Shown: in pieces, positions 14,504 through 41,762 of the stretch | Layout of the letters: every line of letters begins with the position of its first letter | How positions within the stretch are numbered: the stretch's first letter is position 1 | Assembly: GCF_041435115.1 (NCBI RefSeq) | Contig: NZ_CP108046.1 | Location: 7,998,001 to 8,062,000 of the forward strand | Direction: 5' to 3' | Origin: Streptomyces sp. NBC_00289 | Lineage (GTDB): Bacteria; Actinomycetota; Actinomycetes; Streptomycetales; Streptomycetaceae | Length of the DNA: 64,000 nt | The notes under the pieces: generated by a model | What the model saw: the letters and a program-made list of their open reading frames with translations, nothing else | Told to the model about the DNA's origin: nothing | Databases searched by the model: none | Position numbers and translations under genes: made by a program

Positions 14504-14512
14504 TGTTCACTC

Positions 14513-25556: not shown

Positions 25557-27260
25557 CTAGTTGGTTGTGCCGGGCGGCGGGGTGTCGGCGTCCCTGAGCT
25601 GGTTCTGCCGGTGGGTCAGGTAGGAGCGCCAGCTCTTGTGCTTGGTGATGTCTTCCGCGTTCTCCAGTGCGCTCGGCTCGCACAGGAAGCCTGGCACGTG
25701 GGTGCCGTCCGCCAGTTGCACACTGCCCAGCGTCATGGGGCGGGGGAGGGTGCTCAGGAGCCGGCCCAGGCCCTCCGGGGGGAGGTGCCAGACCTCTGTC
25801 TCGATGGGTGCGCCGCCCTCGCCGACGTGGACCAGGCCCGGCTTGGGCGGGTCGGTGCGCAGGGCGTGCAGGCGGTAGACGGGGGCCGTCGTGGTCGTGC
25901 GGTCGAGGCGGGCGCCCAGGGACAGGAGTTGGGGGTTGAGGGGCTGGCCCGTGAGGTGGGCGCCGACCACCGCCAGCCGGGTGTCCGGCCGAAGGAGGGC
26001 GGCGATGCGTGCCAGCCGGTCGTCGGTGAACGCGGGGCCGACCAGCATGACGCCGAAGGGGAGACCGTTCGCCTCGCCCGCGGGGACGGCGACGGCCGCC
26101 AGGTCGAAGAGGTTCGTGGAGTTGGTGAAGCGGCCCAGTCGGGCGTTGCTGCCCAGCGGGTCGGCGGCGACCTCGGCGAGGGTGGGGTGGCCCGGTGCGG
26201 TGGGCAGCAACACGGCGTCCGAGTCGGCCAGTTCCGCCAGGGCCCGGGTGCGCAGGACGGCCAGCCGGTCGGTGTCGGCGAAGAGCCGGTGGGCCGGGAT
26301 GTCACGAGCACGGGTGATGATGCCGGCGACGGTGGGGTCGAGGGACTCGTCGCCCTCGACGATCGCCTTGTCGACAAAGTTCCCCACCGCCGTGTACCGC
26401 TCGGCGACGAACGCGCCCTCATAGAGCATCGCGGCGGCCTCGGTGAACGGGGCGAGGTCGAGGACGCGGATGTCGGCACCCGCCGCGTCGAGCCGGGCGA
26501 CGGCGGCCTCGTAGGCCTCGGCCCACCCCTCGTCCAGCTCGCCGAGCTGTTCCCTGGCCGGGACCGCGACGCGCCACGGGCCGGGGGCGCGCTGGGGGAG
26601 CGGGGGGAGGTCGCGGGATGTGGGGGAGGCCATGAACGACAGGGCCTGCTCGGCCTCCGGGAGCGTACGGGCGAAGACGGTGACGCAGTCGAGGGAGGCG
26701 CAGGCCGGGACGACACCCGCCGTCGGGACGAGGCCACGGGTCGGCTTGAGGCCGACGATGCCGTTGAGGGCGGCCGGGATCCGGCCCGAGCCCGCGGTGT
26801 CGGTGCCCAGGGCGAGGTCCACGATGCCCAGGGCCACCGCGACGGCGGAGCCCGAACTGGAGCCGCCGCTGATCCTCGCCGGGTCGTACGCGCCGCGTAC
26901 CGCGCCGTAGGGCGAGCGGGTGCCGACCAGGCCCGTCGCGAACTGGTCCAGGTTCGTGGTGCCCAGCACGATCGCGCCCGCCGCCCGCAGCCGGGCGACC
27001 ACCGGCGCGTCCGCCTCGGGTTCGTAGCCGTACGACGGGCAGCCCGCGGTGGTGGGCAGGCCGGCCACGTCGATGTTGCCCTTGACGGCGAGCAGACGTC
27101 CGGCGAGCGGGAGCCGCTCGCCCACGGACACCCGCTCGTCGATCACGCGGGCCTCCGCCTCGACCTCGGCCCGCGGGCGCAGGTCGATCCAGATCTCGGG
27201 GCGGTCGACGGCGTCGATGCGGGCGTAGGCGGCGCGGACGCGGGTGAGGGTGCTGGACAT
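25557..27260 (-). CDS. atzF: Allophanate hydrolase (AtzF type)
   Basis: 567 aa. Hydrolyses allophanate (carboxyurea) to ammonia and CO2, the last step of guanidine or urea breakdown by the carboxylase route. Amidase-signature domain (about residues 1-440) with the Ser-cisSer-Lys triad: Lys in LAVKGNIDVAG, Ser residues in GGSSSGSAVAVALG and GTDTAGSGRIPA. A C-terminal domain (about 445-567) is typical of the full-length enzyme. ATG 27260 lies 18 bp after the carboxylase gene, so they form one operon. Confidence 0.95.
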   Translation of the reverse strand: MSSTLTRVRAAYARIDAVDRPEIWIDLRPRAEVEAEARVIDERVSVGERLPLAGRLLAVKGNIDVAGLPTTAGCPSYGYEPEADAPVVARLRAAGAIVLGTTNLDQFATGLVGTRSPYGAVRGAYDPARISGGSSSGSAVAVALGIVDLALGTDTAGSGRIPAALNGIVGLKPTRGLVPTAGVVPACASLDCVTVFARTLPEAEQALSFMASPTSRDLPPLPQRAPGPWRVAVPAREQLGELDEGWAEAYEAAVARLDAAGADIRVLDLAPFTEAAAMLYEGAFVAERYTAVGNFVDKAIVEGDESLDPTVAGIITRARDIPAHRLFADTDRLAVLRTRALAELADSDAVLLPTAPGHPTLAEVAADPLGSNARLGRFTNSTNLFDLAAVAVPAGEANGLPFGVMLVGPAFTDDRLARIAALLRPDTRLAVVGAHLTGQPLNPQLLSLGARLDRTTTTAPVYRLHALRTDPPKPGLVHVGEGGAPIETEVWHLPPEGLGRLLSTLPRPMTLGSVQLADGTHVPGFLCEPSALENAEDITKHKSWRSYLTHRQNQLRDADTPPPGTTN

Positions 27261-27277: not shown

Positions 27278-30200
27278 TCAGTTCGGGGCCGGAGCGAGCA
27301 CGACGAGCGCTGTGCCCGCCTCCACCTGGTCTCCGGGCTTGGCCAGGATCTCCGTCACCACACCGGCGACCGGCGCGTGCACCCTGGACTCCATCTTCAT
27401 CGCCTCCAGGGCCAGGAGTGGCTGCCCGGCCGTCACCGCGTCGCCGGGTCCGACGTTCACCTGCCAGACCGAGGCCGCGAACTCGGCCTCGACCAGGCGG
27501 CCGCCCGCGGGGACGGTGATCTCCGCCGGCGGAGCGGCCGGCGCTGCCGCCGCGTCGGCGCGGGTGAACTCGCCCGCCGCCTCCCAGGCGTCCCGCTCCG
27601 CCGCGAAGGCCGTCCGTTGCCGGGACCCGAACTCCGCGATGGACGCGGCGTTCTCGGCGAGGAACGCCTGGTGGCCGGCGAGGGAGAAGGTGCCCTCCTC
27701 GATGCGGGGGACGAAGCGGCCGGAGGTGATGTCGGCGCGGAGTTCGAGGAGTTCGTCCGCGTCCACCGGATACCACCTGATCCGGTCGAAGAACCGCAGC
27801 AGCCAGGGTGAGCCCGGTTCGAACGCCCCGCGCTGCTGCCAGCCCGACCACACCTGGGTCGTACGGCCGACGAACTGGTAGCCGCCGGGGCCCTCCATGC
27901 CGTAGACGCACAGGTACGCGCCGCCGATGCCGACCGAGTTCTCGGCGGTCCAGGTGCGCGCCGGGTTGTACTTGGTGGTGACCAGGCGGTGCCGCGGATC
28001 CAGCGGGGTGGCCACCGGGGCGCCCAGGTAGACGTCGCCGAGGCCGAGGACCAGGTACTCCGCGTCGAAGACCGTGTCGTACACGCCCGCCACCGAGTCG
28101 AGGCCGTTGACGCGGCGGATGAACTCGATGTTCCACGGGCACCAGGGCGCGTCGTCGCGGACCCCCGCCATGTAGCGGGCGATCGCCTCGCGGGTGGCCG
28201 GGTCGTCCCAGGACAGGGGGAGGTGGACCGTGCGGGAGGGGACGACCAGCTCGTCGGTCGGCGGCAGGGCGGTGACGATCTCCCGTACGGCGACGAGGAG
28301 TTCGTGCTGCGGCAGGCGGCTCGGGTCGGTCCGGATCTGGAGGGAGCGGATGCCCGGTGTGAGGTCCGTGACCCCGTCGAAGGAGGCCTCGGTGACCGCC
28401 TCCATCAGGGCGTGGACGCGCATGCGCAGGGCCAGGTCCAGTTGCATGGGGCCGAACTCGACGAGCAGGTTGTCGTCCCCGCTGCGCCGGTAGGTGACGT
28501 CGCCGTCCCGGGCCAGCACACCGCCGTCCACGATGGCCGGGCGTCGCGCACCCGCCACGTCCACCGGGACGAAGCGCACCGTGTCGCCGGGCCGCAGCTG
28601 GCCGAGCTTCCAGCGCTCGCCGCTGGTCACCGTCGCGGGGCAGACGAAGCCGCCGAGGGAGGGGCCGTCCGGGCCGAGCAGTACCGGCATGTCGCCCGTG
28701 TAGTCGACGGCGCCGACGGAGTACGGGGTGTCGTGGATGTTGGACGGGTGCAGGCCCGCCTCGCCGCCGTCCGAACGCGCCCAGCGCGGCTTGGGGCCGA
28801 CCAGGCGGACACCGGTGCGCGCCGAGTTGAAGTGGACCTTCCAGTCGGCGGCGTAGAAGTCGTGGATGTCCTGCTCGGTGAAGAACTCCGGTGCCGCGTG
28901 AGGGCCTTCGACGGCGGCCACGTGCCATACGGCGGCGAAGCCGGGGCGGTCGGCGGCCGGCACCGGTGTGCCCTCGGCGACCGATCCGCCGTGCAGGACG
29001 TCACCGGTGCGCAGCGCCCGGCCCCCGTGGCCGCCGAAGCGACCCAGGGTGAAGGTGCTCGCGCTGCCCAGGTACGCCGGTATGTCGAGGCCGCCCGCGA
29101 CGAGGAGGTAGGTGCGCAGGCCGTGTTCCGCGGGCGCGCCGATCTCCAGTACGGCCCCCGCGGGCACCGTCACCGGTTCCCACTGCGCGGCCGGCGTGCC
29201 GTCGACGGTCACCGGGGCGGGGGCGCCCGTGACGCACACGGTGGTGGCGTGGGTGAACCGGAGGGCGGGCCCCTTGAGGGTGCATTCGAGGCCCGGTGCG
29301 CCCTCGTGGTTGCCGAGCGCCCGGTTGCCGAGCCGGAAGGACAGGTCGTCCATCGGGCCGCAGGGCGGCACGCCGACCTGCCAGTAGCCGGTGCGGCCGG
29401 GCCAGTCCTGCACGGTGGTGAGCGTCCCGCCGGAGACGACCTCGACGCGCGGCGTCGGGTCGGCCACCGTCGCGAGGGTCGCCGTGGAGTGGGTGGCGTT
29501 CTTGAAGTCCCGGTGCGTGAGCGCGGCCCGGACCAGACCCAGGTTGGTCTCGATGCCGTCGACGCGGGTGCGGGCCAGCGCCTCGTCCAGTCGCTCCAGG
29601 GCGTGCGCCCGGTCGGAGCCGTAGGCGACGACCTTCGCGAGCATCGGGTCGTACGACGTCGTCACCTCGGTGCCGGTCTCCACCCAGCCGTCCACGCGCA
29701 CGCCCGGCGGGAACTCGACGCGGGTCAGCAGGCCCGCGCTCGGCCGGTGTTCGCGGGAGGGGTCCTCGGCGTACAGGCGGGCCTCGACGGCGTGTCCGCG
29801 CGGCCGGCCGGGCTCGCGCACGACGCCGGCCTCGCCGCGGGCCAGGCGCAGCATCCAGTCGACCAGGTCGACGCCGTACACCTCCTCGGTGACCGGGTGT
29901 TCGACCTGGAGGCGGGTGTTGACCTCGAGGAAGTAGGCCTCCTCGCGGGCCGCGTCGTAGACGAACTCGACGGTTCCGGCGGAGCGGTAGCCGACCGAGG
30001 CGCACAGGTCGCGGGCGGAGCGGGCGAGTTGCTGGCGCACGTGCGCGGGCAGGCCGGGCGCCGGTGCCTCCTCCAGCACCTTCTGGTGACGGCGTTGCAG
30101 GGAGCAGTCGCGGTCGCCGAAGGTGACGACCCTGCCCTCGCCGTCGCCGAAGACCTGTACCTCGACGTGGCGGGCGTGCTCGACGAGACGTTCCAGGAAC

Positions 30201-30790
30201 ACGCCGGCGGAGGAGAAGGAGGCGGCGGCGACGCGCTGCACCCGCTCCCAGGCGTCGGCCAGTTCACCGGCGGAGTGGCAGGCGGACATGCCGATGCCGC
30301 CACCGCCGCCGGTCGCCTTGAGCATGACCGGGTAGCCGATCGCGCCCGCCTGCCGAAGGGCCTCGTCCAGGGATGCCAGCAGTCCGGTGCCCGGTGCCAG
30401 GGGAACTCCGGCCGCCTCGGCCGCCGCCCGCGCGGTGTGCTTGGCGCCGAAGAGTTCCAGCTGCCCGGGTGTCGGGCCGACGAACACGATGCCCGCGTCC
30501 TCGCAGCGGCGCGCGAAGGCCGCGTCCTCGGACAGGAAGCCGTAGCCGGGGTGGATCGCGCCGGCGCCCGTGTCCTTGGCCGCCTTCAGGACCAGGTCGG
30601 CGTCGAGGTACGACTCCTTCGCGGGCGCCGGGCCGAGCCGCACCGCCTCGTCGGCGAGCCGGACGTGGGGGGCGGAGCGGTCGGGGTCGGAGTACACGGC
30701 GATCGTGCGCAGGCCCAGTTCGCGGGCGGTGCGGATGATCCGCACGGCTATCTCGCCGCGGTTGGCTGTCAGCAGGGTGTCGAAGGTCAT
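27278..30790 (-). CDS. Biotin-dependent carboxylase of the urea/guanidine carboxylase family
   Basis: 1170 aa. Biotin carboxylase domain (residues 1-450; MLKATGGGGGIGM ATP-grasp loop), a carboxyltransferase of KipA/KipI (AHS1/AHS2) type (about 470-1000; VVSGGTLTTVQDWPGRTGYW), and a biotin carrier domain at the C-terminus with EAMKMES, biotinyl K1132. It adds CO2 to urea or guanidine using ATP. Annotated 'urea carboxylase' by similarity, but partners of the DUF1989 pair have been shown in other bacteria to act mainly on guanidine, so guanidine carboxylase is more likely. ATG 30790 overlaps the previous stop (ATGA). Confidence 0.93.
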   Translation of the reverse strand: MTFDTLLTANRGEIAVRIIRTARELGLRTIAVYSDPDRSAPHVRLADEAVRLGPAPAKESYLDADLVLKAAKDTGAGAIHPGYGFLSEDAAFARRCEDAGIVFVGPTPGQLELFGAKHTARAAAEAAGVPLAPGTGLLASLDEALRQAGAIGYPVMLKATGGGGGIGMSACHSAGELADAWERVQRVAAASFSSAGVFLERLVEHARHVEVQVFGDGEGRVVTFGDRDCSLQRRHQKVLEEAPAPGLPAHVRQQLARSARDLCASVGYRSAGTVEFVYDAAREEAYFLEVNTRLQVEHPVTEEVYGVDLVDWMLRLARGEAGVVREPGRPRGHAVEARLYAEDPSREHRPSAGLLTRVEFPPGVRVDGWVETGTEVTTSYDPMLAKVVAYGSDRAHALERLDEALARTRVDGIETNLGLVRAALTHRDFKNATHSTATLATVADPTPRVEVVSGGTLTTVQDWPGRTGYWQVGVPPCGPMDDLSFRLGNRALGNHEGAPGLECTLKGPALRFTHATTVCVTGAPAPVTVDGTPAAQWEPVTVPAGAVLEIGAPAEHGLRTYLLVAGGLDIPAYLGSASTFTLGRFGGHGGRALRTGDVLHGGSVAEGTPVPAADRPGFAAVWHVAAVEGPHAAPEFFTEQDIHDFYAADWKVHFNSARTGVRLVGPKPRWARSDGGEAGLHPSNIHDTPYSVGAVDYTGDMPVLLGPDGPSLGGFVCPATVTSGERWKLGQLRPGDTVRFVPVDVAGARRPAIVDGGVLARDGDVTYRRSGDDNLLVEFGPMQLDLALRMRVHALMEAVTEASFDGVTDLTPGIRSLQIRTDPSRLPQHELLVAVREIVTALPPTDELVVPSRTVHLPLSWDDPATREAIARYMAGVRDDAPWCPWNIEFIRRVNGLDSVAGVYDTVFDAEYLVLGLGDVYLGAPVATPLDPRHRLVTTKYNPARTWTAENSVGIGGAYLCVYGMEGPGGYQFVGRTTQVWSGWQQRGAFEPGSPWLLRFFDRIRWYPVDADELLELRADITSGRFVPRIEEGTFSLAGHQAFLAENAASIAEFGSRQRTAFAAERDAWEAAGEFTRADAAAAPAAPPAEITVPAGGRLVEAEFAASVWQVNVGPGDAVTAGQPLLALEAMKMESRVHAPVAGVVTEILAKPGDQVEAGTALVVLAPAPN

Positions 30791-31392
30791 GCCGCGGCCG
30801 CCTCGGTGATCGTCATCTCCACCGCCGTCGGCTCGAATCCGTTGCACGGGTTGTTGATCTGGGGGCAGTTGGAGACGAGGACGAGCACGTCCCGCTCGGC
30901 GCGCAGGGTCAGCCGCAGGCCTGGCGCGGAGAGACCGTCGACGATGCCGAGGGTGCCGTCCTTCTCGACCGGCACGTTCATGTACCAGTTGATGTTGGAC
31001 ACGAGGTCGCGCTTGCCGAGACCGTACTTCGCGCCCTCCGCGAGGAAGTTGTCCACGCACGCGTGCTGCGACCAGGTGTGGTGGCCGTAGCGCAGGGTGT
31101 TGGACTCCTTGGAGCAGGCGCCGCCGACCGTGTCGTGCCGGCCCACCTGGTCGTCGGTCACGGTCATCAGCGGGGTGTGCTCGTTGGACATGAGCACGCT
31201 GCCGGTGGTGAGGAAGATGCCACCCTGCGCGTGGATCGTGTCGGGCGCGCTGTAGCGGACCGACGTGTCGTGGGCGTCGTAGACGAGGAAGTCGACGGCC
31301 TGGTTGCCGTGCAGGTCGGTGACGGTGAGCGTCTGTCCGGCGCGGACGACGGCCGACCAGGCGGCCCGGGCGGGAACGACGGACGTGCTCAT
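30787..31392 (-). CDS. DUF1989 protein (urea-amidolyase-associated protein 2), probable carboxyguanidine deiminase subunit
   Basis: 201 aa. DUF1989 fold with conserved stretches NQAVDFLVY, QGGIFLTTGS and NEHTPLMTV, and the Cys-containing GGACSKESN. In other bacteria the paired DUF1989 proteins of carboxylase operons form CgdAB, which deiminates carboxyguanidine to allophanate. Start ATG 31392 overlaps the stop of the first DUF1989 gene; its own stop overlaps the carboxylase start. Which of the two is CgdA or CgdB I leave open. Confidence 0.88.
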   Translation of the reverse strand: MSTSVVPARAAWSAVVRAGQTLTVTDLHGNQAVDFLVYDAHDTSVRYSAPDTIHAQGGIFLTTGSVLMSNEHTPLMTVTDDQVGRHDTVGGACSKESNTLRYGHHTWSQHACVDNFLAEGAKYGLGKRDLVSNINWYMNVPVEKDGTLGIVDGLSAPGLRLTLRAERDVLVLVSNCPQINNPCNGFEPTAVEMTITEAAAA

Positions 31393-32213
31393 GCGAGCCC
31401 CCTCGCGGCGAGAAGTTCGGCGGTGTTGAGGAAGGCGCGGCGGCCCTCGGGGGTGGCCTCCCACAGCGGGTCGCCCGGCCGGGTGGCCTCGGCACGCCAG
31501 GCCAGCACCTCCAGCGGGGTGCTGACGTAGTCCGGGCGGGGGTCCGCGGGGTGTGGCACGTTGGCGAGCAGCACGGTCACGTCCTGCTCGGCGCGGAGGG
31601 TCACGCTGCCGCCGGGGCCCGCCGAGCCGGTGAAGTCGAGGGTGCCGTCGTCGCGTACCTCGACGCCCTGGAAGAAGGAGAGCGACGGTGGCAGGTCGCG
31701 GGCTTCCAGGCCGTTCTTCGCGGCCGCCAGTTTGAACAGCTCGCGGCCGGCGGGGGAGGGGGACTGCGGGGTGCCGTCGCCGTAGCGCGCGGTGTTGCGG
31801 ACGAGCGTGGAGGTGCCGCACAGGGCGTCGTGCCGGCCGGAGGTGTCGCCCACCACCGAGGCGAGGACCCGGCCCTGGTCGGACAGGAGGAGTTTGTCCT
31901 CGCCCAGGTAGGCGTTCCACTGGACCTTCACCGTGTCGGCGACGTTCAGCCGCTCCCAGGGCCGGTCGGCGGCGTACAGCAGCAGGTGGGCGCAGGCGTC
32001 GCCGCGCAGGTCGGTCAGTCGGAGCTCGGTGCCGCGGGCCAGCACCCGGTGTGTGTAGTTGCCGCCCGCGACCGTCTCGGCCCACACCAGGTGGCCCGCC
32101 TCGCAGGGGGGCGCCGGCCAGTTCCCGGCCGGTACGACGGGCATGGCCTCGGTGCGCGTGCCCTGTTGGGCTCGGGCATGGGCGCGGGCTCCGTAAGTGG
32201 TCGCTGTCGCCAT
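31389..32213 (-). CDS. DUF1989 protein (urea-amidolyase-associated protein 1), probable carboxyguanidine deiminase subunit
   Basis: 274 aa; the larger of the two DUF1989 proteins and first gene of the four-gene operon. Conserved segments are GDACAHLLLY, ERLNVADTVKVQWNAYL, CGTSTLVRNTARYG and a C-terminal domain ending in an Ala/Arg-rich helix. ATG 32213 lies 51 nt downstream of the perfect TetR-type palindrome (32265-32288). The predicted product of the operon is ammonia from guanidine, in the cytoplasm. Confidence 0.88.
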   Translation of the reverse strand: MATATTYGARAHARAQQGTRTEAMPVVPAGNWPAPPCEAGHLVWAETVAGGNYTHRVLARGTELRLTDLRGDACAHLLLYAADRPWERLNVADTVKVQWNAYLGEDKLLLSDQGRVLASVVGDTSGRHDALCGTSTLVRNTARYGDGTPQSPSPAGRELFKLAAAKNGLEARDLPPSLSFFQGVEVRDDGTLDFTGSAGPGGSVTLRAEQDVTVLLANVPHPADPRPDYVSTPLEVLAWRAEATRPGDPLWEATPEGRRAFLNTAELLAARGLA

Positions 32214-32264
32214 CGCGGGACCTCCGGCTCCGGGGTGGGTCCGTCTCGGCGAACCCGTCGGTCG

Positions 32265-32288
32265 AATTTCTGTCGCTCGACAGAAATT
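32265..32288. promoter_or_regulatory. Operator of the guanidine/urea operon (perfect palindrome)
   Basis: Arms AATTTCTGTCG (32265-32275) and CGACAGAAATT (32278-32288) are perfect inverted repeats with a 2-bp centre. The AT content is unusual for this genome. It lies between the DUF1989 operon and the divergent TetR gene. The stretch from 32265 to 32290 matches 40595-40620, before the APC permease, at 23 of 26 positions, so one regulator probably serves both. Confidence 0.85.
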
Positions 32289-32408
32289 AGGTGCGGGGCG
32301 GGTCGCCGGCGTTGCCCGCGCGTTGCCGCCCGGTTACCGAGCCCTCACGGGGATCACCCGGAAGTCGGCCCGGGATCACCCGGGACACCGTGTGCGAGGA
32401 TCGAACGC

Positions 32409-33044
32409 ATGGGGACGACAGGTGAACGGCCGGGCCGCCGGGTCGGCAGGCCGCGGGCCGCACAGCGGCCGGACAGCGGTCTGCGGCCGCGCGAGGAACT
32501 GCTCGCGGCCGCCGCGGAGTTGTTCACCACCCGCGGCTACGCGGCCACCACCACCCGGACCGTCGCCGAACGCGCGGGCATGCGGCAGGCGTCGATGTAC
32601 CACTACGTCTCCGGCAAGGAGGAACTGCTCGCCGCGCTCCTGGAGTCCACGGTCACCCCCTCCCTCGCCTACGCCCGCGAACTCCTCGCCGACGACACGG
32701 CCCCGGCTGAGGACCGGCTGTGGGAGCTGTGCCGCACCGACGTCGAGCTGCTGTGCGGCGGACCGCACAACCTGGGTGGCCTCTACCTGCTGCCCGAGGT
32801 GCGGGCCGAGAAGTTCGCCGGCTTCCATGCCGTACGTGCCGAACTCAAGGACGCCTACCGGCAGTTGCTCGCCTCGACGGCTGCGGGGGGCGCGCTGGCC
32901 AAGAGTGAGCTCGACCTGCGTACGGACCTGTTGTTCGGGCTGATCGAGGGCGTCATCCTGGTCCACCGCTCCGATCCGGAGCGGTCGGTGTCGGTGTTCG
33001 CCGAGGCGACGGCGGACGCGGCGCTGCGCATCGCCGGGATCTGA
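32409..33044 (+). CDS. TetR-family transcriptional regulator
   Basis: 211 aa from ATG 32409. N-terminal helix-turn-helix (LLAAAAELFTTRGYAATTTRTVAERAG...SMYHYVSGKEELL, about residues 28-75) and a variable ligand-binding domain. It is divergent from the DUF1989-carboxylase operon, with the 24-bp palindrome between, so it probably represses this operon and the APC permease gene at 40.6 kb. The ligand could be guanidine, urea or a derivative; no residue shows this directly. Confidence 0.9.
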   Translation: MGTTGERPGRRVGRPRAAQRPDSGLRPREELLAAAAELFTTRGYAATTTRTVAERAGMRQASMYHYVSGKEELLAALLESTVTPSLAYARELLADDTAPAEDRLWELCRTDVELLCGGPHNLGGLYLLPEVRAEKFAGFHAVRAELKDAYRQLLASTAAGGALAKSELDLRTDLLFGLIEGVILVHRSDPERSVSVFAEATADAALRIAGI

Positions 33045-33392
33045 GCCGGACCGCCGCCCGGCCCTGTCGCCCCCGGCCCCTGTCACCTGCCCTGGCTCCG
33101 GTCACCCGTCACGGTGAGTGGTTTTCGCATGCCCGTACGCCGTGACGCTGCGTGTGCGAAAGGAACCTGAGCGTGCAAATGGGGCCGAGGGTACTCCTGT
33201 CGCGAGGGTCGATTCAGGTGCTTGCCGAATATGACACGGCCTTGATCCGGTCGGACTAAGCTCGCCCGCAGCGCACCGAGTTGAGGTGTATTCGTGCGCT
33301 TGTTCCCAAACATACCGAAGATCCAGACTGTTCCCTGTCGTACCCCCCCGCAAGGTCCCCGACTCCCAGCCGATTTGTCTCAGAGGGCCCAC
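33045..33392. other. Non-coding gap between the TetR gene and the conservon
   Basis: 348 bp. An imperfect hairpin (TTTCGCA at 33123-33129 with TGCGAAA at 33155-33161) may end the TetR transcript. The AT-richer part (33200-33290) probably holds the conservon promoter, but I see no convincing -35/-10 pair. A possible alternative GTG start for cvnA lies at 33294. Confidence 0.5.
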
Positions 33393-34970
33393 ATGGTGAG
33401 TGTTCAATCCCCTCCGGATCGCCGTGAACTCCCGTACACGCGACTGCTGTTGCTGCCCGCCATAGCGATGGCGGCGGCGACCGGGGCCGCCGCAGCGATG
33501 GTGGCGGGGCCGGCCCGGACGGCCGTCGGCGGGTGCGGCGCCGTCGCCACCCTGCTGGTGCTCGCCACGGCGGCGGCCGCGGTCCGCCGCGGGCGTTCCC
33601 TGCGTGACCGGTACGCCGAGCAGACCCGTCACACCGCGTATCTGGAACGGCGGATCGCCGCCCACGACCAGGACATGCTGCGCTTCGCCAAGGAGATCGC
33701 GCCGGCCGCGCTGAACCGGATGCGCGGTGGAAATTCCCCCGGAGAGGTGATTCGCCACCTCGGCGACCTCGACCCCTCCTACCGCGAACTTCCCCAGGCA
33801 CAGGTGTCGTTGCTGAAGACGGTGCTGGACATCGTCGACCGCGAGGAGTCGATGCGTGACGGCGCGCAGCGCTCCTTCGTCAACATCGCCCGCCGCGTCC
33901 AGGCCATCGTCCACCAGCAGGCCAACGAACTGCGGGAGATGGAGGAGGACCACGGCCGCAACCCCGAGGTCTTCGACGACCTCCTGCGCATCGACCACGG
34001 CACCGCGCTGATCGGCCGCCTCGCCGACTCCATCTCCGTCCTCGGCGGCGGCCGCCCGGGCCGCCAGTGGCCCGAGCCCGTGCCGCTGTTCAGCGTGATG
34101 CGCGGCGCCATGTCCCGCATCCTGGAGTACCGCCGCATCGAGCTGCACTCCATCGCCAAGGTCAACATCCGCGGCACCGCCGTCGAGCCCCTCATCCACG
34201 CCGCGGCCGAACTCCTCGACAACGCCACGCGCTACTCGCCGCCCCAGACCAAGGTGCACGTCACGGCCGTCGAGGTGCAGACCGGTGTCGCCATCGAGAT
34301 CGAGGACGCCGGCGTCAGCCTCAGCGAGGAGGCCCGCGCCCAGGCCGAGGGCATGCTGGAACGCGCCAGAACGGGCGGCGTGGAGGACCTCGGCGAGTCA
34401 CCCCGCCTGGGCCTGGCCGTCGTCGGACGGCTCTGCCAGACGTACAAGATGCAGGTCTCGCTGCGGGCCTCCGCCTACGGCGGTGTCCGCGCCGTCCTCG
34501 TCGTGCCCAGCGACATGATGACCGCCGAGCACGCCTCCGGACTCGCCCACGGCATCGGCGCCACCGCCGCGCCCAAGATCGACCTCGGAGCGCTCGAGGG
34601 ACCCAAGCGCGTGCCCAAGAAGCGCCGCCCCACCAGCCCCCGCATCACCGCGCCGCTCTCCATGGAGGACGACGTCCGCGAGGTCACCGAGTGGACCGCG
34701 GGCGGTCTGCCGCAGCGCCGCAGCCGGGTCAAGACCCCGCTCAGCCAGCGGTTCGCCGAGCAGGCGGCCATCGAGCGGGCCGAACGTGAGGGCAAGCCGA
34801 CCATCTGGTCGACGCCCGCACCCGAACCGGCACCGAAGGACCCCGAACCGGGGCTGTGGGTCGAGGCCTTCATGGACGGGCTCAAGGGCGACCCGGACCC
34901 GACCGCATTCACCCAGCCGACACACGAGCCGGCCCGCATCGAGGCCGACGACGAGAGGGACCTCAAGTGA
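33393..34970 (+). CDS. cvnA: Conservon protein CvnA, histidine-kinase-like membrane sensor
   Basis: 525 aa from ATG 33393 (AGAGGG upstream; an in-frame GTG at 33294 would add 33 residues). Two N-terminal transmembrane segments (about residues 17-43 and 48-68), a helical region, then an HATPase domain with N-box HAAAELLDNATRYSPP and RLGLAVVGRLC. A phospho-acceptor His box is not obvious. The C-terminal 150 residues are disordered, rich in Pro and charged. In S. coelicolor, cvn9 (the rar operon) has this same content with a following P450 and affects aerial growth. CvnA is thought to assemble with CvnB-D like a GPCR-type complex. Confidence 0.9.
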   Translation: MVSVQSPPDRRELPYTRLLLLPAIAMAAATGAAAAMVAGPARTAVGGCGAVATLLVLATAAAAVRRGRSLRDRYAEQTRHTAYLERRIAAHDQDMLRFAKEIAPAALNRMRGGNSPGEVIRHLGDLDPSYRELPQAQVSLLKTVLDIVDREESMRDGAQRSFVNIARRVQAIVHQQANELREMEEDHGRNPEVFDDLLRIDHGTALIGRLADSISVLGGGRPGRQWPEPVPLFSVMRGAMSRILEYRRIELHSIAKVNIRGTAVEPLIHAAAELLDNATRYSPPQTKVHVTAVEVQTGVAIEIEDAGVSLSEEARAQAEGMLERARTGGVEDLGESPRLGLAVVGRLCQTYKMQVSLRASAYGGVRAVLVVPSDMMTAEHASGLAHGIGATAAPKIDLGALEGPKRVPKKRRPTSPRITAPLSMEDDVREVTEWTAGGLPQRRSRVKTPLSQRFAEQAAIERAEREGKPTIWSTPAPEPAPKDPEPGLWVEAFMDGLKGDPDPTAFTQPTHEPARIEADDERDLK

Positions 34971-35374
34971 TCCAGCAACGAGCGAACTTCGACTGGATGC
35001 TGAAGGATCTCGCCGACGGCGTACCCGGCATCGAGATGATCGTGGTGCTCTCCGCCGACGGGCTGCGCATCGCCCGCCACGGCGGCGAACCGGACGCCGC
35101 CGACCGCGTCGCCGCGGCCTGTGCGGGCCTGCAGAGCCTGGCGGGCGCCGTCGCCCAGGAGATCCCGGACAGCGACGGCCGGATGCGCATGGTCATCATC
35201 GAGGTCAACGGCGGCTACTTCTACCTGATGGCCGCGGGCGCCAACGCCTACCTCGCGGTCCTGTCCGACGTGGTCGCCGAACCCGGCCTGATGAGCAACC
35301 GCATGCGCGACCTCGTCGTCCGGATCGGCGCCCACCTCACCAGCCCGCCCCGGCGCAACGGCCAGACCGTATGA
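34967..35374 (+). CDS. cvnB: Conservon protein CvnB, roadblock/LC7 domain
   Basis: 135 aa, GTG 34967 overlapping the cvnA stop (GTGA). Single roadblock/LC7 domain: FDWMLKDLADGVPGIEMIVVLSADGLRIA and the GGYFYLMAAGANAYLAVL strand. Roadblock proteins regulate small GTPases such as MglA; here the partner is CvnD. Overlapping starts and stops throughout the operon suggest stoichiometric synthesis. Confidence 0.95.
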   Translation: MIQQRANFDWMLKDLADGVPGIEMIVVLSADGLRIARHGGEPDAADRVAAACAGLQSLAGAVAQEIPDSDGRMRMVIIEVNGGYFYLMAAGANAYLAVLSDVVAEPGLMSNRMRDLVVRIGAHLTSPPRRNGQTV

Positions 35375-35760
35375 CTCCTCCGCAACGCCGGCGGCGACAC
35401 CCCAAGACCGAACCACCACCCAAACAGGGCGGGAAGGAACCCCAGCGGCTCTACGTGCTCACCGGCGCGGGAGACGAGGGGCAGCGGGCGGAACTCGACC
35501 TGGTCACGTTAATCGTGGCGCGCGCCGACCCCCCGCCCTCCGCCCAGCCCGAGCAGGCGGCGCTGCTCCGGATGTGCACGACCCCCCTGTCCGTGGCCGA
35601 GCTCTCGGCCTATCTCAATCTGCCGTACAGCGTGGTGACCGTCCTGCTCACCGAGCTGCTGACGGCAGAACTGGTCCAGGCGCGCAACCCGATCGTCCGC
35701 CAGGCGCTCCCCGACCGTTCCCTCCTCGAAGCGGTGATGCATGGACTTCAAAAGCTCTGA
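35371..35760 (+). CDS. cvnC: Conservon protein CvnC (DUF742)
   Basis: 129 aa from ATG 35371, overlapping the cvnB stop by 4 nt. Basic, disordered N-terminus (RRRHPKTEPPPK), then RLYVLTGAG and the winged-helix-like LSVAELSAYLNLPYSVVTVLLTELLTAELV of DUF742. DNA binding is possible but unproven. Its end overlaps cvnD by 20 nt. Confidence 0.95.
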   Translation: MTPPQRRRRHPKTEPPPKQGGKEPQRLYVLTGAGDEGQRAELDLVTLIVARADPPPSAQPEQAALLRMCTTPLSVAELSAYLNLPYSVVTVLLTELLTAELVQARNPIVRQALPDRSLLEAVMHGLQKL

Positions 35761-36361
35761 CACCATCACGGGTCCCCGGACCGAGGACCATCTCCCGCAC
35801 ACGGCCCAGGCCGCGGTGAAGATCGTGATCGTGGGCGGCTTCGGGGTCGGCAAGACGACCATGGTCGGCTCGGTCAGCGAGATCAGGCCGCTGACCACCG
35901 AGGAGACCATGACGCAGGCCGGCGTCGGGGTCGACGACAACTACGGCTCCGACTCCAAGACGGCCACCACCGTGGCGATGGACTTCGGCCGGATCAGCAT
36001 CACCGACCAGCTGGTGCTGTACCTCTTCGGCACCCCCGGCCAGGAACGCTTCTGGTTCCTGTGGAACGGCCTGTTCGAGGGCGCGCTGGGCGCGGTCGTC
36101 CTGATCGACACCCGTCGGCTCGAGGTCAGCTTCGACGTCATGGACCGGCTCGAGGAGCGCGGTGTGCCGTTCGTGGTCGCCGTCAACACCTTCCCGGACG
36201 GGCCCCATCACCCCGTCGAGGACCTGCGCACCGCTCTCGACCTGAGTCCGGGCATCCCGATCATCGAGTGCGACGCGCGCCGCCGCGCCTCCAGCCGGGA
36301 CGTCCTGATGACCCTGATGCGCTTCCTGCACTCCCTCGCCATGACGGGCTCGCTCACCTAG
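35741..36361 (+). CDS. cvnD: Conservon protein CvnD, MglA/Ras-like small GTPase
   Basis: 206 aa. P-loop VGGFGVGKTTMVGSVSE (about residues 31-47), switch region with TVAMDFGRIS, G3-type motif LFGTPGQERFWFLWNG and a nucleotide-specificity region VVAVNTFPDG in place of NKxD, a known feature of this family. It should cycle between GDP and GTP under control of CvnA/CvnB. Confidence 0.95.
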   Translation: MDFKSSDTITGPRTEDHLPHTAQAAVKIVIVGGFGVGKTTMVGSVSEIRPLTTEETMTQAGVGVDDNYGSDSKTATTVAMDFGRISITDQLVLYLFGTPGQERFWFLWNGLFEGALGAVVLIDTRRLEVSFDVMDRLEERGVPFVVAVNTFPDGPHHPVEDLRTALDLSPGIPIIECDARRRASSRDVLMTLMRFLHSLAMTGSLT

Positions 36362-36427
36362 CCCGGCTCGGCGACCACTCCCGTCTTCCTTCCCCCCAGA
36401 CCCCGGATCCACTTCGGAGCGACCACT

Positions 36428-37921
36428 GTGACGCCTGAATCCCACTCCCTCACCGGTACGGACCCCACGCCCGGCCCGCCGCCCGGATGCCCCGCCCACG
36501 GCCGCGGCCCCGGGGGGCTGCACCGGCTGTACGGCCCGGACGCGGAGGACCTGGGCTCCCTGTACGAGCAACTGCGCGAGGAGCACGGCCCGGTGGCGCC
36601 CGTGCTGCTCCATGACGACGTGCCGATGTGGCTGGTCCTCGGCCACGCCGAGAACCTGCACATGGTGCGCACGCCCTCGCAGTTCTGCCGGGACAGCCGC
36701 ATCTGGACCCCCCTCCTGGACGGCATGGTCAAGCCCGACCACCCGCTCATGCCGCACATCGCCTGGGAGCCCATCTGCTCCCACACCGAGGGCGACGAGC
36801 ACCTGCGGCTGCGCGGCGCGGTCACCGGCGCCATCTCGACCATCGACCACCGCGGCGCCCGCCGGCACATCAACCGCTACACCCAGCGCCTCGTCAACGA
36901 GTTCTGCGAGGAGGGCGCGGCCGAACTCGTCAGCCAGTTCGCCGAGCACCTGCCGATGGCCGTGCTGTGCGAGATCCTCGGGATGCCCGAGGAGTACAAC
37001 GACCGCATGGTGCAGGCGGCCCGCGACATGCTCCGGGGCACCGAGACGGCCATCGCCAGCCACGCCTACGTCATGGGCGCCCTCCAGCGGCTCGCCGTCC
37101 GCCGCCGGGCCCAGCCCGAGGACGACTTCGCCAGCCACCTCGTCAACCACCCGGCGGGCCTCACCGACGACGAGGTCACCAAGCACCTGTGGGTCGTCCT
37201 CATGGCGGCCTACGAGGCCACCGCCAACCTCATCGCCAACGTGCTGCGTATGGTCCTCACCGACCCGCGCTTCCGTGCCCAGCTCAACGGCGGCCAGATG
37301 ACGGTGCCCGAGGCGGTCGAGCAGTCCCTGTGGGACGAACCGCCGTTCAGCACGGTCTTCGCCTACTTCGCCAAGCAGGACACCGAACTCGGCGGCCGGC
37401 GCATCCGCAAGGGCGACGGGCTGCTCTTCGGCATCGCGCCGGGCAACATCGACCCGCGGGTGCGCCCCGACCTGGCCGCCAACATGCAGGGCAACCGCTC
37501 CCACCTCGCCTTCGGCGGCGGCCCGCACGAGTGCCCCGGTCAGGACATCGGGCGCGCCATCGCCGACACCGGCGTCGACGCCCTGCTGATGCGCCTGCCG
37601 GACGTCGAACTCGACATCGACGAGGACGAGTTGTCCTGGACCGAGTCGCTGGCCTCACGCCACCTGGTGGAGATGCCGGTCCGCTTCGAACCGAAGCCGC
37701 AGCAGGACGTGTTGCAGAAGCCGAGCCACGCTCCCGTGCCGCCCCAGCGCGCCGCCTGGCAGGTCAGCACCCCGCGACCGCAGCCCGTGCAGCCCGCGAC
37801 ACCGGCGCCGGAGCCCGCGCCCCGGCCGGCCCCCGCCCCGCAGCAGACCGTGCCCGCGCCCGAACCGGCCCGCCCGATGGGTGCCTGGCGACGCTTCCTG
37901 CTGTGGTGGCGCGGCTACTGA
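36428..37921 (+). CDS. CYP157-type cytochrome P450 lacking EXXR, conservon-associated
   Basis: 497 aa from GTG 36428. Heme-binding loop FGGGPHECPGQDIGR with ligand C369; I-helix region MAAYEATANLIANVL. The K-helix reads VEQSLWDEPPF (E298-Q-S-L-W302), so the two invariant residues of EXXR are Gln and Trp. The same EQSLW sequence is reported for S. coelicolor CYP157C1, at nearly the same position. A Pro-rich tail of about 75 residues ends in WRRFLLWWRGY, perhaps membrane-associated. It follows cvnD by 66 bp, as RarE in the rar operon. Whether it is a competent monooxygenase is unclear. Its stop overlaps the convergent pseudouridine synthase gene by 7 nt. Confidence 0.92.
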   Translation: MTPESHSLTGTDPTPGPPPGCPAHGRGPGGLHRLYGPDAEDLGSLYEQLREEHGPVAPVLLHDDVPMWLVLGHAENLHMVRTPSQFCRDSRIWTPLLDGMVKPDHPLMPHIAWEPICSHTEGDEHLRLRGAVTGAISTIDHRGARRHINRYTQRLVNEFCEEGAAELVSQFAEHLPMAVLCEILGMPEEYNDRMVQAARDMLRGTETAIASHAYVMGALQRLAVRRRAQPEDDFASHLVNHPAGLTDDEVTKHLWVVLMAAYEATANLIANVLRMVLTDPRFRAQLNGGQMTVPEAVEQSLWDEPPFSTVFAYFAKQDTELGGRRIRKGDGLLFGIAPGNIDPRVRPDLAANMQGNRSHLAFGGGPHECPGQDIGRAIADTGVDALLMRLPDVELDIDEDELSWTESLASRHLVEMPVRFEPKPQQDVLQKPSHAPVPPQRAAWQVSTPRPQPVQPATPAPEPAPRPAPAPQQTVPAPEPARPMGAWRRFLLWWRGY

Positions 37922-38883
37922 CCGGCCGACCAGCGGTCGTACGAGGCCCAGGCCCCGAGCGCCCGCCCACTGCGGAACCGGTGCTCCACCCCCGTGACCG
38001 GATCGGTGAACTCCAGCTCACGCGCCAGTAGTTGGAGCGGACGCCGGAAGTCGCCGGCCGGCACGGGGCCGGTCACCACCGGGTACAGCGGATCGCCGAG
38101 GATCGGCACGCCGAGCGTGTTCATGTGGACGCGCAGCTGGTGCGTCTGGCCGGTGGCGGGCACCAGGCGGTACCGGCCGAGCCGGCCCGGCCCGTCCGTC
38201 GAGGGGCGGTGTTCCACCAGCTCGACGCGGCTGACGGCGTTCGGCTCGCCCTCGACCTCACGGGCGGCCAGGATCCCGCGCTCCTTGAGGATCCGGCTGC
38301 GTACGGTCCGGGGCAGGACGACCGAGGGGTCGTAGGGGGCGACGGCCTCGTAGACCTTGCGCACCCGCCGGTCGCCGAACAGCGACTGGTACGCGCCGCG
38401 TTCACCCGGGCGCACGGTGAACAGCAGGAGACCGGCGGTCAGTCGGTCGAGGCGGTGGGCGGCGCCGAGGGTGGGGATGCCCAGCTCCCGGCGCAGCCGC
38501 GCGAGCGCGGTCTCGGTGACATGGCTGCCCCGGGGTGTGGTGGCCAGGAAGTGCGGTTTGTCGACGACCACGATGTGCTCGTCGCGATGCACCACCTCCA
38601 GCGGGAACGGCACCCGCACCTCGGCGGGCAGCTCCCGGTGGAACCAGACGAACATCCCCGGCACGAACACGGCGTCGGCCGCCACCGCCCGCCCGTCCGC
38701 CCCGACGACGAGCCCTGCCGAGAACATGTGGTCGACGACCCCGGTGCCCGCTCGCGAGAGCCGTTCCGCGAGGTGTTCGCGCACGGTGGCCCAGCCACCC
38801 TCGGGAGGCAGCCGCACCCGCACCGGGTCGATCCCCTCGCGCTGGGGCAGGGGAGAGGGCGGGATACGGGGTTTGCGTCTCAT
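37915..38883 (-). CDS. RluA-family pseudouridine synthase
   Basis: 322 aa, start ATG 38883 (MRRKPRIPPSPLPQREG). Catalytic Asp in AAHRLDRLTAGLLLFTVR, substrate-binding LVVGADGRAV and VVDKPHFLATTP, and the motif ATGQTHQLRVHMNTLGVPILGD. It isomerises uridine to pseudouridine in rRNA or tRNA; the target cannot be told from sequence. It is convergent with the P450 gene, with a 7-nt overlap, and separate in function. Confidence 0.93.
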   Translation of the reverse strand: MRRKPRIPPSPLPQREGIDPVRVRLPPEGGWATVREHLAERLSRAGTGVVDHMFSAGLVVGADGRAVAADAVFVPGMFVWFHRELPAEVRVPFPLEVVHRDEHIVVVDKPHFLATTPRGSHVTETALARLRRELGIPTLGAAHRLDRLTAGLLLFTVRPGERGAYQSLFGDRRVRKVYEAVAPYDPSVVLPRTVRSRILKERGILAAREVEGEPNAVSRVELVEHRPSTDGPGRLGRYRLVPATGQTHQLRVHMNTLGVPILGDPLYPVVTGPVPAGDFRRPLQLLARELEFTDPVTGVEHRFRSGRALGAWASYDRWSAGQ

Positions 38884-39017
38884 CAGGGCAAGCGTACGAG
38901 GCGCCCAGCCCCGCGCCCGCCGCCTCGCCAGGCGCCCGCCACCCGCGCCCGCCGCCCCGCGGGCCGGCGTGCTCGTGCTCGACCCGCGGGGCGGCGAGGC
39001 GCCGGGCCGGACACCTC

Positions 39018-40571
39018 CTAGGGAGCCGGTTCCGGTACGGGCGCCGTCGTGGCCGCCCGCCCGCGCAGGGCGACCGAGAGCCGCCACAGCCCTCCGGCAC
39101 CCACGGTGACCAGCAGGAACAGCACCGTGAACCACTGGAAGTACCAGTGCCCGCCCGCGGGGTCGTACACCGCGGCGCGCGGCCAGGCCAGGTTGACCGT
39201 CATGAACAGGCCGTACAGCAGGGCCAGCACGTTGACCGGTACGCCCCAGCGTCCGAGGGAGAAGAGGCGGGCTCCCGTCTCGTCGGTGCCGTCGGAGGTG
39301 AAGCCGCCGCGCAGGCGGCGGACCAGCAGCGGGCCGGTGACCATCGCGTAGGCCAGGTACAGCATCACGATGCAGGTGGTGCCGATGGCCAGGAACGCCT
39401 CCGGGGAGGCGAAGTTGAGCAGCAGCAGGGCCGCCGCGAGGACGCCGACCACCAGGGCGGGGGCGCCGGGCATGCCGGTGCGAGGGTTGACCTTGGCGAG
39501 GCGGCGGGCGAAGGGCAGTTGTCCGTCGCGGGCCATGGAGAACAGCATTCGGCAGGCGGCCGTCTGGATCGCCAGGGTCGCGACCGCGATCGCCACCACC
39601 ACGTCGGCCAGCAGCGCGCGGCCGACCCCGTCGCCCAGGCTGCTGGTCAGGACGTAACTCAGTCCGTCGACGCCCAGGTGCCCGTCGGTGAGGCTCGGCG
39701 CGGCGAGCAGACCACCGAGGACGATCAGTCCGCCGAGCAGACCGGCGGCGCCCAGTGCGGTGAGGATGGTGCGGGGCGCGGTACGCCGCGGATTGTGCGT
39801 CTCCTCGCTCATCTCGCCCGCGCTGTCGAACCCGATCATCACGTACGCCGCCGTGAACGAACCCACCAGCAGCGCGCCGAACAGGCCGGACTGGGCGGCG
39901 GTCCCGGTGTGGAAGGTGATGCCGGGGGAGCGCTCCGAGTGGGTCAGCAGCAGGACGACGATGAGCACCGCGCCGATGATCTCGGCGGTCACGCCGACGC
40001 GGTTGATCACGGACATCACCCGGTTGTCCACGAGGTTCACGATCGTGGTGAGGACCAGCAGGACCACGCCGAGGACGGCCGCGTTGGCCGCGCCGTCGGC
40101 CGAGACCGGCGAAGGGTCGCTGCCCACCAGCTGGAAGCCCGACCAGATGGCCGGCAACACCATCTGCAGGGCCAGGGCCGCCGCGGCGACCACCACGATC
40201 TGTCCGATCACCATGATCCAGCCGGCGAACCAGCCGAAAGTGGCGTTCGACAGGCGCGAGGACCACTGGTAGATCGCGCCCGAGATCGGGTAGCGGGCGG
40301 CCAGTTCCGCGAAGCAGGCGGCCACCAGAAGCTGCCCGGCCAGGACGATCGGCCAGGCCCAGAAGAAGACGGGGCCGCCGAACGCGTACCCGAACGCGAA
40401 GAACTGGAAGACGGTGGTCAGGACGGAGATGAACGAGAAGCCGGCCGCGAACGAGGCGTACCGGCCGAGGCTGCGGTGCAGCTCCTGGCGGTAGCCGAAC
40501 TCGGCGAGGGAGCGGTCGCCGGGGGACTCCGGCGGATCGGGGCGCAGGTCGGAGGAAACGGTTGTGGTCAC
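39018..40571 (-). CDS. APC-family amino acid/amide permease, likely co-regulated with the guanidine operon
   Basis: 517 aa with about 12 transmembrane segments and a Gly-rich first helix (SFAAGFSFISVLTT), typical of the APC superfamily; also FAELAARYPISGAIYQWSSRL and the GFDSAGEMSEETHNPRR loop. GTG 40571 is the start. An operator nearly identical to the one before the DUF1989-carboxylase operon lies 24 nt upstream (40595-40618). Permeases of this family often accompany urea/guanidine carboxylase genes, so it may import guanidine or a guanidino/amide compound. The RluA gene beyond it is separated by 134 bp. Confidence 0.9.
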   Translation of the reverse strand: MTTTVSSDLRPDPPESPGDRSLAEFGYRQELHRSLGRYASFAAGFSFISVLTTVFQFFAFGYAFGGPVFFWAWPIVLAGQLLVAACFAELAARYPISGAIYQWSSRLSNATFGWFAGWIMVIGQIVVVAAAALALQMVLPAIWSGFQLVGSDPSPVSADGAANAAVLGVVLLVLTTIVNLVDNRVMSVINRVGVTAEIIGAVLIVVLLLTHSERSPGITFHTGTAAQSGLFGALLVGSFTAAYVMIGFDSAGEMSEETHNPRRTAPRTILTALGAAGLLGGLIVLGGLLAAPSLTDGHLGVDGLSYVLTSSLGDGVGRALLADVVVAIAVATLAIQTAACRMLFSMARDGQLPFARRLAKVNPRTGMPGAPALVVGVLAAALLLLNFASPEAFLAIGTTCIVMLYLAYAMVTGPLLVRRLRGGFTSDGTDETGARLFSLGRWGVPVNVLALLYGLFMTVNLAWPRAAVYDPAGGHWYFQWFTVLFLLVTVGAGGLWRLSVALRGRAATTAPVPEPAP

Positions 40572-40594
40572 GGCGGCACCTGCCTTGGGCGCTG

Positions 40595-40618
40595 AATTCC
40601 TGTCGGTTGACAGAAATT
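40595..40618. promoter_or_regulatory. Second copy of the TetR operator, before the APC permease
   Basis: AATTCCTGTCG and TTGACAGAAATT arms. The block 40595-40620 differs from 32265-32290 at three of 26 positions, and the right half site is identical. It is placed so that a bound repressor would block the start of transcription or translation. Confidence 0.8.
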
Positions 40619-40804
40619 AGGGAGCCGCTGTTTCGGTGGCGTCACGTGAGCGTGTCCGAGGCGGGCCCAAGTCCTCACGTTCTCGGCGGGTCGGCCGTAG
40701 CGCGATATGTCGCGTACTGCCCGAGGGGGTGGTCGCGGCACGCTTCACCGGCCCGTGGCGGGGCGGTTTGTCCGGGATCGTCCGTCGCCGGACGCGCGCA
40801 CACG

Positions 40805-41740: not shown

Positions 41741-41762
41741 GGCGGCCTCCCTCATCCGGTGC

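Follow-up and report, generated by a model that had tools for sequence, protein, structure and literature searches.

Why does an APC permease gene of Streptomyces sp. NBC_00289 carry in front of it the same inverted repeat as a catabolic operon 8 kb away? Both lie in a stretch of 64,000 nucleotides (NZ_CP108046.1, positions 7,998,001 to 8,062,000), referred to here as the window, whose numbering is used unless another locus is named. The operon encodes two DUF1989 subunits (UAAP1 and UAAP2), a biotin-dependent carboxylase and an allophanate hydrolase, and a TetR-family gene is transcribed divergently from it. The sequence-only reading had proposed that the permease is the importer of a guanidine/urea pathway and that the TetR protein represses both. 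We conclude, with a probability of roughly four in five, that the locus is an AmtR regulon of a GlnR-type actinomycete, in which one operator, present in two copies, serves a guanidine operon and the APC permease.

Operator 1, a predicted AmtR site at 32265..32288, is the inverted repeat AATTTCTGTCG-CT-CGACAGAAATT, located 51 nt upstream of UAAP1 and 120 nt upstream of amtR, the TetR-family gene. Its arms are perfect over 11 + 11 bp; the central CT is not self-complementary, so the earlier description as a perfect 24-bp palindrome was slightly generous. Operator 2, predicted at 40595..40618, is an imperfect copy with two arm mismatches. Counted by eye, positions 32264-32289 and 40594-40619 agree at 23 of 26 bases, as had been stated, and the second site does lie upstream of the permease gene, with a gap of 23 nt to the GTG at 40571 rather than the 24 nt first given. 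Both operators contain the core CTGTC-N4-GACAG, which has the published AmtR operator form CTRT(C)-N4/6-(G)AYAG. The 22-bp AmtR consensus given for Streptomyces avermitilis and other GlnR-type actinomycetes is TAtCTGTCa-n2-cGACAGATAT (PMC8864220).

The repeat is rare. Judging by 100 shuffles of the window, chance would produce no match to the inverted-repeat pattern, and the genome-wide search suggested by the earlier reading found TTTCTGTN6ACAGAAA, with at most one mismatch, at operators 1 and 2 only in the whole genome (11,001,603 bases), both of them linked to the cassette. Allowing up to three mismatches raised the count to 41, with 33 for the reversed pattern; given this small excess, the boxes at this threshold were dropped as a source of further regulon members. 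With the broader core TYCTRTCN4GAYAGRA and at most one mismatch, eight places were found against one for the control. Operators 1 and 2 match this core exactly, and six other places have one mismatch (183812, 1056285, 1836775, 2905989, 6660640 and 10442340 on G000:C1 of the window genome), the first and last of these being mirror copies of one sequence.

We read the operator as shared because both boxes are kept across Streptomyces genomes and named loci, and this conservation strongly supports the proposed coupling of the permease to the operon, with AmtR binding as a prediction. When 61 Streptomyces genomes were searched for the box (at most one mismatch) and for the permease, 18 had the box and 14 had a permease of at least 72% identity. 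All 14 carried a box between UAAP1 and amtR and another ahead of the permease, in 13 cases with at most one mismatch in each; the permease box of G039 has two. The genome G042 has the cassette, amtR and the box, and no permease match. Boxes in three genomes (G027, G051 and G056) were taken as unrelated, no cassette gene being present within the 9.4-17 kb fetched. Four genomes with a permease of 57-58% identity have no such box and are members of a second AmtR lineage, in which AmtR is 40% identical and a variant box, TACCTGTCN4GACAGGTA, stands before the permease in all six loci examined.

The same pattern was found in a set of 80 named loci, drawn from the AmtR-alignment matches listed and not including S. 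avermitilis. UAAP1 was present in 72 of these loci, with a box at UAAP1 in 71, and the permease in 65. The box lay directly upstream of the permease in 57 loci and farther upstream in three, and the end of the locus cut five, so that 57 of the 60 testable permeases have a directly upstream box. In the three others (L183, L186 and L189), it lies 823, 1945 and 465 nt upstream of the permease, ahead of a dioxygenase gene or its remnant. Over the 1.54 Mb of the named loci, 131 box matches with at most one mismatch were found, 128 of them assigned, against 0 for the reversed pattern.

The imperfection of operator 2 is recurrent. In 72 UAAP1 and 58 permease upstream regions (window included) anchored on the box, the gene-proximal half-site was GACAGAAA at UAAP1 in 71 of 72 regions and GACAGGAA at the permease in 58 of 58, the central bases being variable. 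The permease box is imperfect as well in L100 and L101, two genomes of another family, though in the opposite half. This asymmetry suggests that the permease operator would have a lower affinity for AmtR.

The regulator gene itself, amtR (32409..33044, forward strand), encodes a TetR-family protein of 211 residues. Its best PDB match was 5e57 at 1.5e-36, followed by other AmtR entries (5dxz, 5dy0, 5dy1, 5mqq and 6gy3) at 3.8e-32 and by the next protein at 1.7e-12; we take 5e57 to come from Mycobacterium smegmatis and the other five from Corynebacterium glutamicum. The protein scored above the cut-off of no NCBIfam profile. Because the solved AmtR proteins far outscore other TetR families, the TetR protein is by homology AmtR. 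This identity, together with the conserved boxes, supports the proposal of one TetR repressor common to the operon and the permease, to both of which it is predicted to bind.

A further design is common to both promoters. Each operator overlaps a TAATTT, a candidate -10 element (32284..32289 at operator 1 and 40614..40619 at operator 2, both on the reverse strand), preceded by a GlnR-like array of five 5-mers in 11-nt steps. On the operon side, these are GTGAG, GTAAC, GCAAC, GCAAC and GACCC (32300..32348, reverse strand) and, on the permease side, GTGAG, GGCCC, GACAC, GTGAC and GAAAC (40630..40678, reverse strand). At both promoters, the 5-mers are at -62, -51, -40, -29 and -18, followed by TAATTT at -3 to +2 entering the operator. 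The TAATTT is invariant in the 72 aligned UAAP1 upstream regions, and TAA stands before the box in 57 of the 58 permease regions. The last two 5-mers on the permease side, GTGAC-n6-GAAAC, form a full GlnR box, the Streptomyces coelicolor box being gTnAc-n6-GaAAc (PMC10704036 Table 2). Scored against it, these two 5-mers reached 9/9 in 31, 8/9 in 24 and 7/9 in three of the 58 permease regions, and the best box on the UAAP1 side scored 9 in two, 8 in 62 and 7 in eight of the 72. Mononucleotide shuffles scoring at least 8 amounted to 2/1160 (permease) and 1/1440 (UAAP1). The upstream sequences are related, and the GlnR-box counts are therefore not independent. Within the window, a composite of the GlnR box and TAATTTCTGTC occurred, with up to three mismatches, at the two promoters only (exact at the permease, three mismatches at the operon), and the regions upstream of both UAAP1 and the permease score 9/9 in L100 and L101. 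A sigma70-like promoter scan of 32100-32500 found none, which fits a promoter that depends on an activator. These motifs point to a GlnR-like site shared by both promoters, to which GlnR is predicted to bind.

The model that follows from this arrangement has few steps. AmtR would bind operator 1, in front of the four-gene guanidine carboxylase/carboxyguanidine deiminase/allophanate hydrolase operon, and operator 2, in front of the permease, and would block RNA polymerase at TAATTT because each operator overlaps this -10-like element. Since both promoters have an identically phased GlnR-like array directly upstream, transcription is predicted to require two inputs, GlnR bound under nitrogen shortage and AmtR released. 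The permease would import guanidine, and the operon would convert it to ammonia.

What might release AmtR is a separate matter. Tentatively, we propose that in GlnR-type actinomycetes AmtR is a repressor that responds to guanidine, a protein counterpart of the guanidine-I riboswitch, and that it forms a two-input gate with GlnR, in which nitrogen shortage and guanidine are both required; E130 and E180 would contact guanidinium, and the weaker permease operator would free the importer first. We regard this as quite possible and somewhat short of probable. A guanidine sensor would explain the failed release of M. smegmatis AmtR by urea. Among 38 guanidine-cassette AmtRs, position 130 is Glu in 37 and Asp in one, and position 180 is Glu in all 38 and invariant in a 23-row alignment too. 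In alignments read by eye, both positions are acidic in M. smegmatis AmtR, and Ile and Met, respectively, in C. glutamicum AmtR, so that the proteins differ at a possible ligand position in the C-terminal domain; we take the two residues as no more than a pointer to a guanidinium site. Alternatively, AmtR would sense no small molecule and be released by the PII protein GlnK, induction then reporting the nitrogen state only. This mechanism is established in C. glutamicum (PMC8864220, PMC4617892), but we consider it rather unlikely here, as the GlnR-like array already supplies a nitrogen signal and E130 and E180, replaced in C. glutamicum, are kept in the cassette and M. smegmatis AmtRs.

The choice of guanidine as the substrate comes from the operon. 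Its genes run leftwards from 32213 on the reverse strand, their ends overlapping or nearly so: UAAP1 (31389..32213; TIGR03425, 317.4 bits against a cut-off of 205.95) and UAAP2 (30787..31392; TIGR03424, 330.3 bits against 284.7), both matching PF09347 and predicted to be carboxyguanidine deiminase subunits; the biotin-dependent carboxylase (27278..30790; TIGR02712, 'urea carboxylase'), a predicted guanidine carboxylase; and the allophanate hydrolase with its amidase and AH_C parts (25557..27260; PF01425, PF21986), whose start codon was picked by eye. The presence of two DUF1989 subunits and an allophanate hydrolase within one operon is what characterizes the guanidine carboxylase pathway, the deiminase role of the DUF1989 subunits being known from PMC11410670. 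In that work, an Asp at Kluyveromyces lactis position 1330 marks guanidine carboxylases and an Asp at 1584 is found in guanidine and urea enzymes, and urea carboxylases have an asparagine at the 1330 position (PMC12186494). The window carboxylase has Asp696 at the former position and Asp919 at the latter, and does not have the urea-specific Asn. Every one of the 38 AmtR-bearing loci examined, the window among them, has both Asp residues. Across the 45 loci examined at the 1330 position, 40 have Asp, three have Met (L108, L116 and L117) and two (L111 and L112) are without the carboxylase.

Riboswitches tie a permease-led cassette to guanidine by another route. A guanidine-I riboswitch lies upstream of the permease in L116 (7902-8008; 80.2 bits) and L117 (3991-4109; 63.0 bits), the latter scoring exactly the gathering score in the narrower search only and being unlisted at the gathering threshold in the wider scan. 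The permeases of these two loci are 54% and 59% identical to that of the window, and neither locus has a close AmtR (best 36% and 39%). A scan of the window against Rfam at the gathering threshold gave no match and no guanidine riboswitch, riboswitch control being frequent for the pathway and not defining. Riboswitches were found in 2/7 scanned loci without a local AmtR and 0/15 with AmtR (window included), too few loci for mutual exclusion to be judged.

The permease (39018..40571, reverse strand; AA_permease_2) is a predicted guanidine importer. It is not the otherwise anonymous protein of the sequence-only reading, its best NCBIfam match being TIGR03428, 'permease, urea carboxylase system'. 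This name, that of TIGR02712 and the framing of the AmtR work in M. smegmatis around urea (PMC4222082) would favour a urea regulon, in which urea enters through the permease and is broken down by the carboxylase and allophanate hydrolase, acting as a urea amidolyase. We find this improbable, as Asp696 stands where urea-specific carboxylases have Asn, the two DUF1989 deiminase subunits are unneeded for urea breakdown, related cassettes are under guanidine-I riboswitches, and M. smegmatis AmtR was not released by urea in the same report. Because of the carboxylase Asp residues and the guanidine-I riboswitches on two cassette relatives, guanidine is the likelier substrate; the catabolic operon claimed earlier stands, and its guanidine/urea assignment narrows to guanidine.

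It is very improbable that a different TetR-family protein binds both boxes or that the permease box is a relic: TetR paralogues are many in the window genome (19 AmtR matches at E 1e-5), but the next-best is only 30% identical (8e-12), the core CTGTC-N4-GACAG is the same as in the consensus published for AmtR (PMC8864220), and the box is kept directly upstream in 57 of the 60 testable permeases and farther upstream in the other three.

Several observations nevertheless weigh against an AmtR regulon for guanidine. The permease reached 648.8 bits with TIGR03428, under the cut-off of 740.45, yet this was the best of all families; we therefore expect it to work like that family and do not file it as a member. 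The riboswitch loci L116 and L117 carry Met in place of Asp at the position that marks substrate specificity and are among the three Met cases, so the carboxylase-residue and riboswitch arguments never meet in one locus. Beyond Streptomyces and L100/L101, the GlnR box scores 4-7/9 at 13 of 15 other distant sites and 8 at two. L187 has UAAP1 and AmtR without a box. Eight of the 80 named loci are without UAAP1: two are short contigs, and the remaining six (L196, L198, L200, L204, L205 and L208) have an AmtR-like protein (69-74% identity) and no box at up to one mismatch. In G219, amtR is located away from the cassette and lacks an adjacent box, an argument against autoregulation as a general rule; both boxes remain at the cassette. 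The six weaker genome places may leave room for further weak AmtR targets. Finally, M. smegmatis AmtR was not released by urea or amino acids (PMC4222082), and the protein GlnK releases C. glutamicum AmtR (PMC8864220, PMC4617892), so that AmtR might respond to no small molecule at all.

The AmtR regulon reading leaves the 8-kb distance to be accounted for. A conservon and a pseudouridine synthase had been placed between the two sites, and the domain matches bear this out. The gene block at 33393..36361 (forward strand; HATPase_c, Robl_LC7, DUF742, ATP_bind_1), which we take to be a conservon, cvnA-D, is followed by its P450-like gene (36428..37921, forward strand; p450, 26.1 bits) and by an RluA-family pseudouridine synthase (37915..38883, reverse strand; family profile matches); no operator was assigned to the conservon. 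In four of the 14 Streptomyces genomes, the permease adjoins amtR and the conservon is absent, and 13 of the 65 permease-bearing named loci listed have no cvnD match at the locus. L100 and L101 have the compact order also, and in the second lineage the genes form a single run, permease-UAAP1-UAAP2-carboxylase-allophanate hydrolase-amtR (L063, L064, L065, L109, L110 and L122). Because the permease elsewhere adjoins amtR or heads a gene run, a later insertion best accounts for the distance: the simplest reading, from gene orders alone, takes the compact order as ancestral, with the conservon block then inserted and the operator staying with the permease. On its other side, the permease promoter region is adjoined by a siderophore-interacting protein gene (40895-41755, reverse strand).

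Some loci show variant neighbourhoods. The dioxygenase gene mentioned above is whole-looking in L186 only (13871-14881, reverse strand; PF14226, PF03171), where it separates the permease from its operator, the box being about 0.9 kb from the dioxygenase gene; pieces of it are found in L183 and L189. This 2-oxoglutarate/Fe(II) (2OG-Fe(II)) dioxygenase has its best PDB match in 9ovh, labelled ethylene/succinate-forming enzyme (2e-59). The resemblance to an ethylene-forming enzyme is a hint of guanidino chemistry, which we did not use as evidence, given one whole-looking copy out of three and the distance from the box in L186. The carboxylase frame of L118 (7063-9111, reverse strand; family f4) has two carboxyltransferase domains only, without biotin carboxylase or biotin carrier, and half-length carboxylase matches were also seen in L105, L107, L113, L114, L116, L119, L120 and L121. 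A sodium:solute symporter family gene stands between UAAP1 and amtR in L118 (10480-12009, reverse strand), the position of the APC permease elsewhere, which suggests a transporter swap. L111 and L112 have UAAP1-UAAP2-allophanate hydrolase and no carboxylase match within the 20 kb fetched, with a phosphotriesterase-family gene and a CoA transferase nearby in L111.

That AmtR is common to such a cassette and a distant permease is largely known from related species, and the window is a new instance. In S. avermitilis, AmtRsav reportedly controls the operon and sav_6709 transcripts directly, a result attributed to electrophoretic mobility shift assays by Chen et al. 2013 (Microbiology 159:2571). 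As in the window, amtR (sav6701) of that species lies beside an amidase/carboxylase operon (sav6697, sav6698) and the permease (sav6709) some genes off (Jessberger et al. 2013, PMC4222082 Table 3), the same authors remarking on the separate position of the permease gene. The window box differs from the S. avermitilis box (PMC8864220) in its flanks, TTT/AAA. M. smegmatis likewise has a small AmtR regulon, permease msmeg_2184 and a carboxylase operon, within the GlnR modulon; its AmtR binds upstream of msmeg_2184 by gel shift, and joint control of one cassette by GlnR and AmtR has already been described there (PMC4222082). In M. smegmatis, however, amtR is apart from the cassette, whereas in the window it is transcribed divergently from the operon and a separate promoter and operator serve the permease. 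C. glutamicum AmtR resembles that of the window in sequence family and box geometry (CTAT-N6-ATAG, PMC8864220), but it is a global nitrogen repressor released by GlnK (PMC8864220, PMC4617892) and is without the two conserved acidic residues. The enzyme set of guanidine-I riboswitch carboxylase operons (PMC11410670, PMC12186494, PMC12508155) equals that of the window, where control is predicted to be by a protein repressor instead, and in nitrifiers an APC permease has been predicted to import guanidine (PMC11410670). What the present analysis adds is the guanidine assignment, the GlnR-like arrays at both promoters and the imperfect permease operator throughout.

A full-text literature search found AmtR and guanidine together only in insect papers, with no link in the present sense, most subscription journals lying outside its coverage. 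In the articles cited here on GlnR-type actinomycetes, AmtR is treated as a regulator of urea or a minor nitrogen regulator, with no effector assigned to it. Should AmtR prove to sense guanidine, this orphan regulator would acquire a ligand that can be tested, and the substrate of the APC permease would be defined. The same guanidine cassette would then be governed by a riboswitch or by a repressor, two switches of unrelated kinds.

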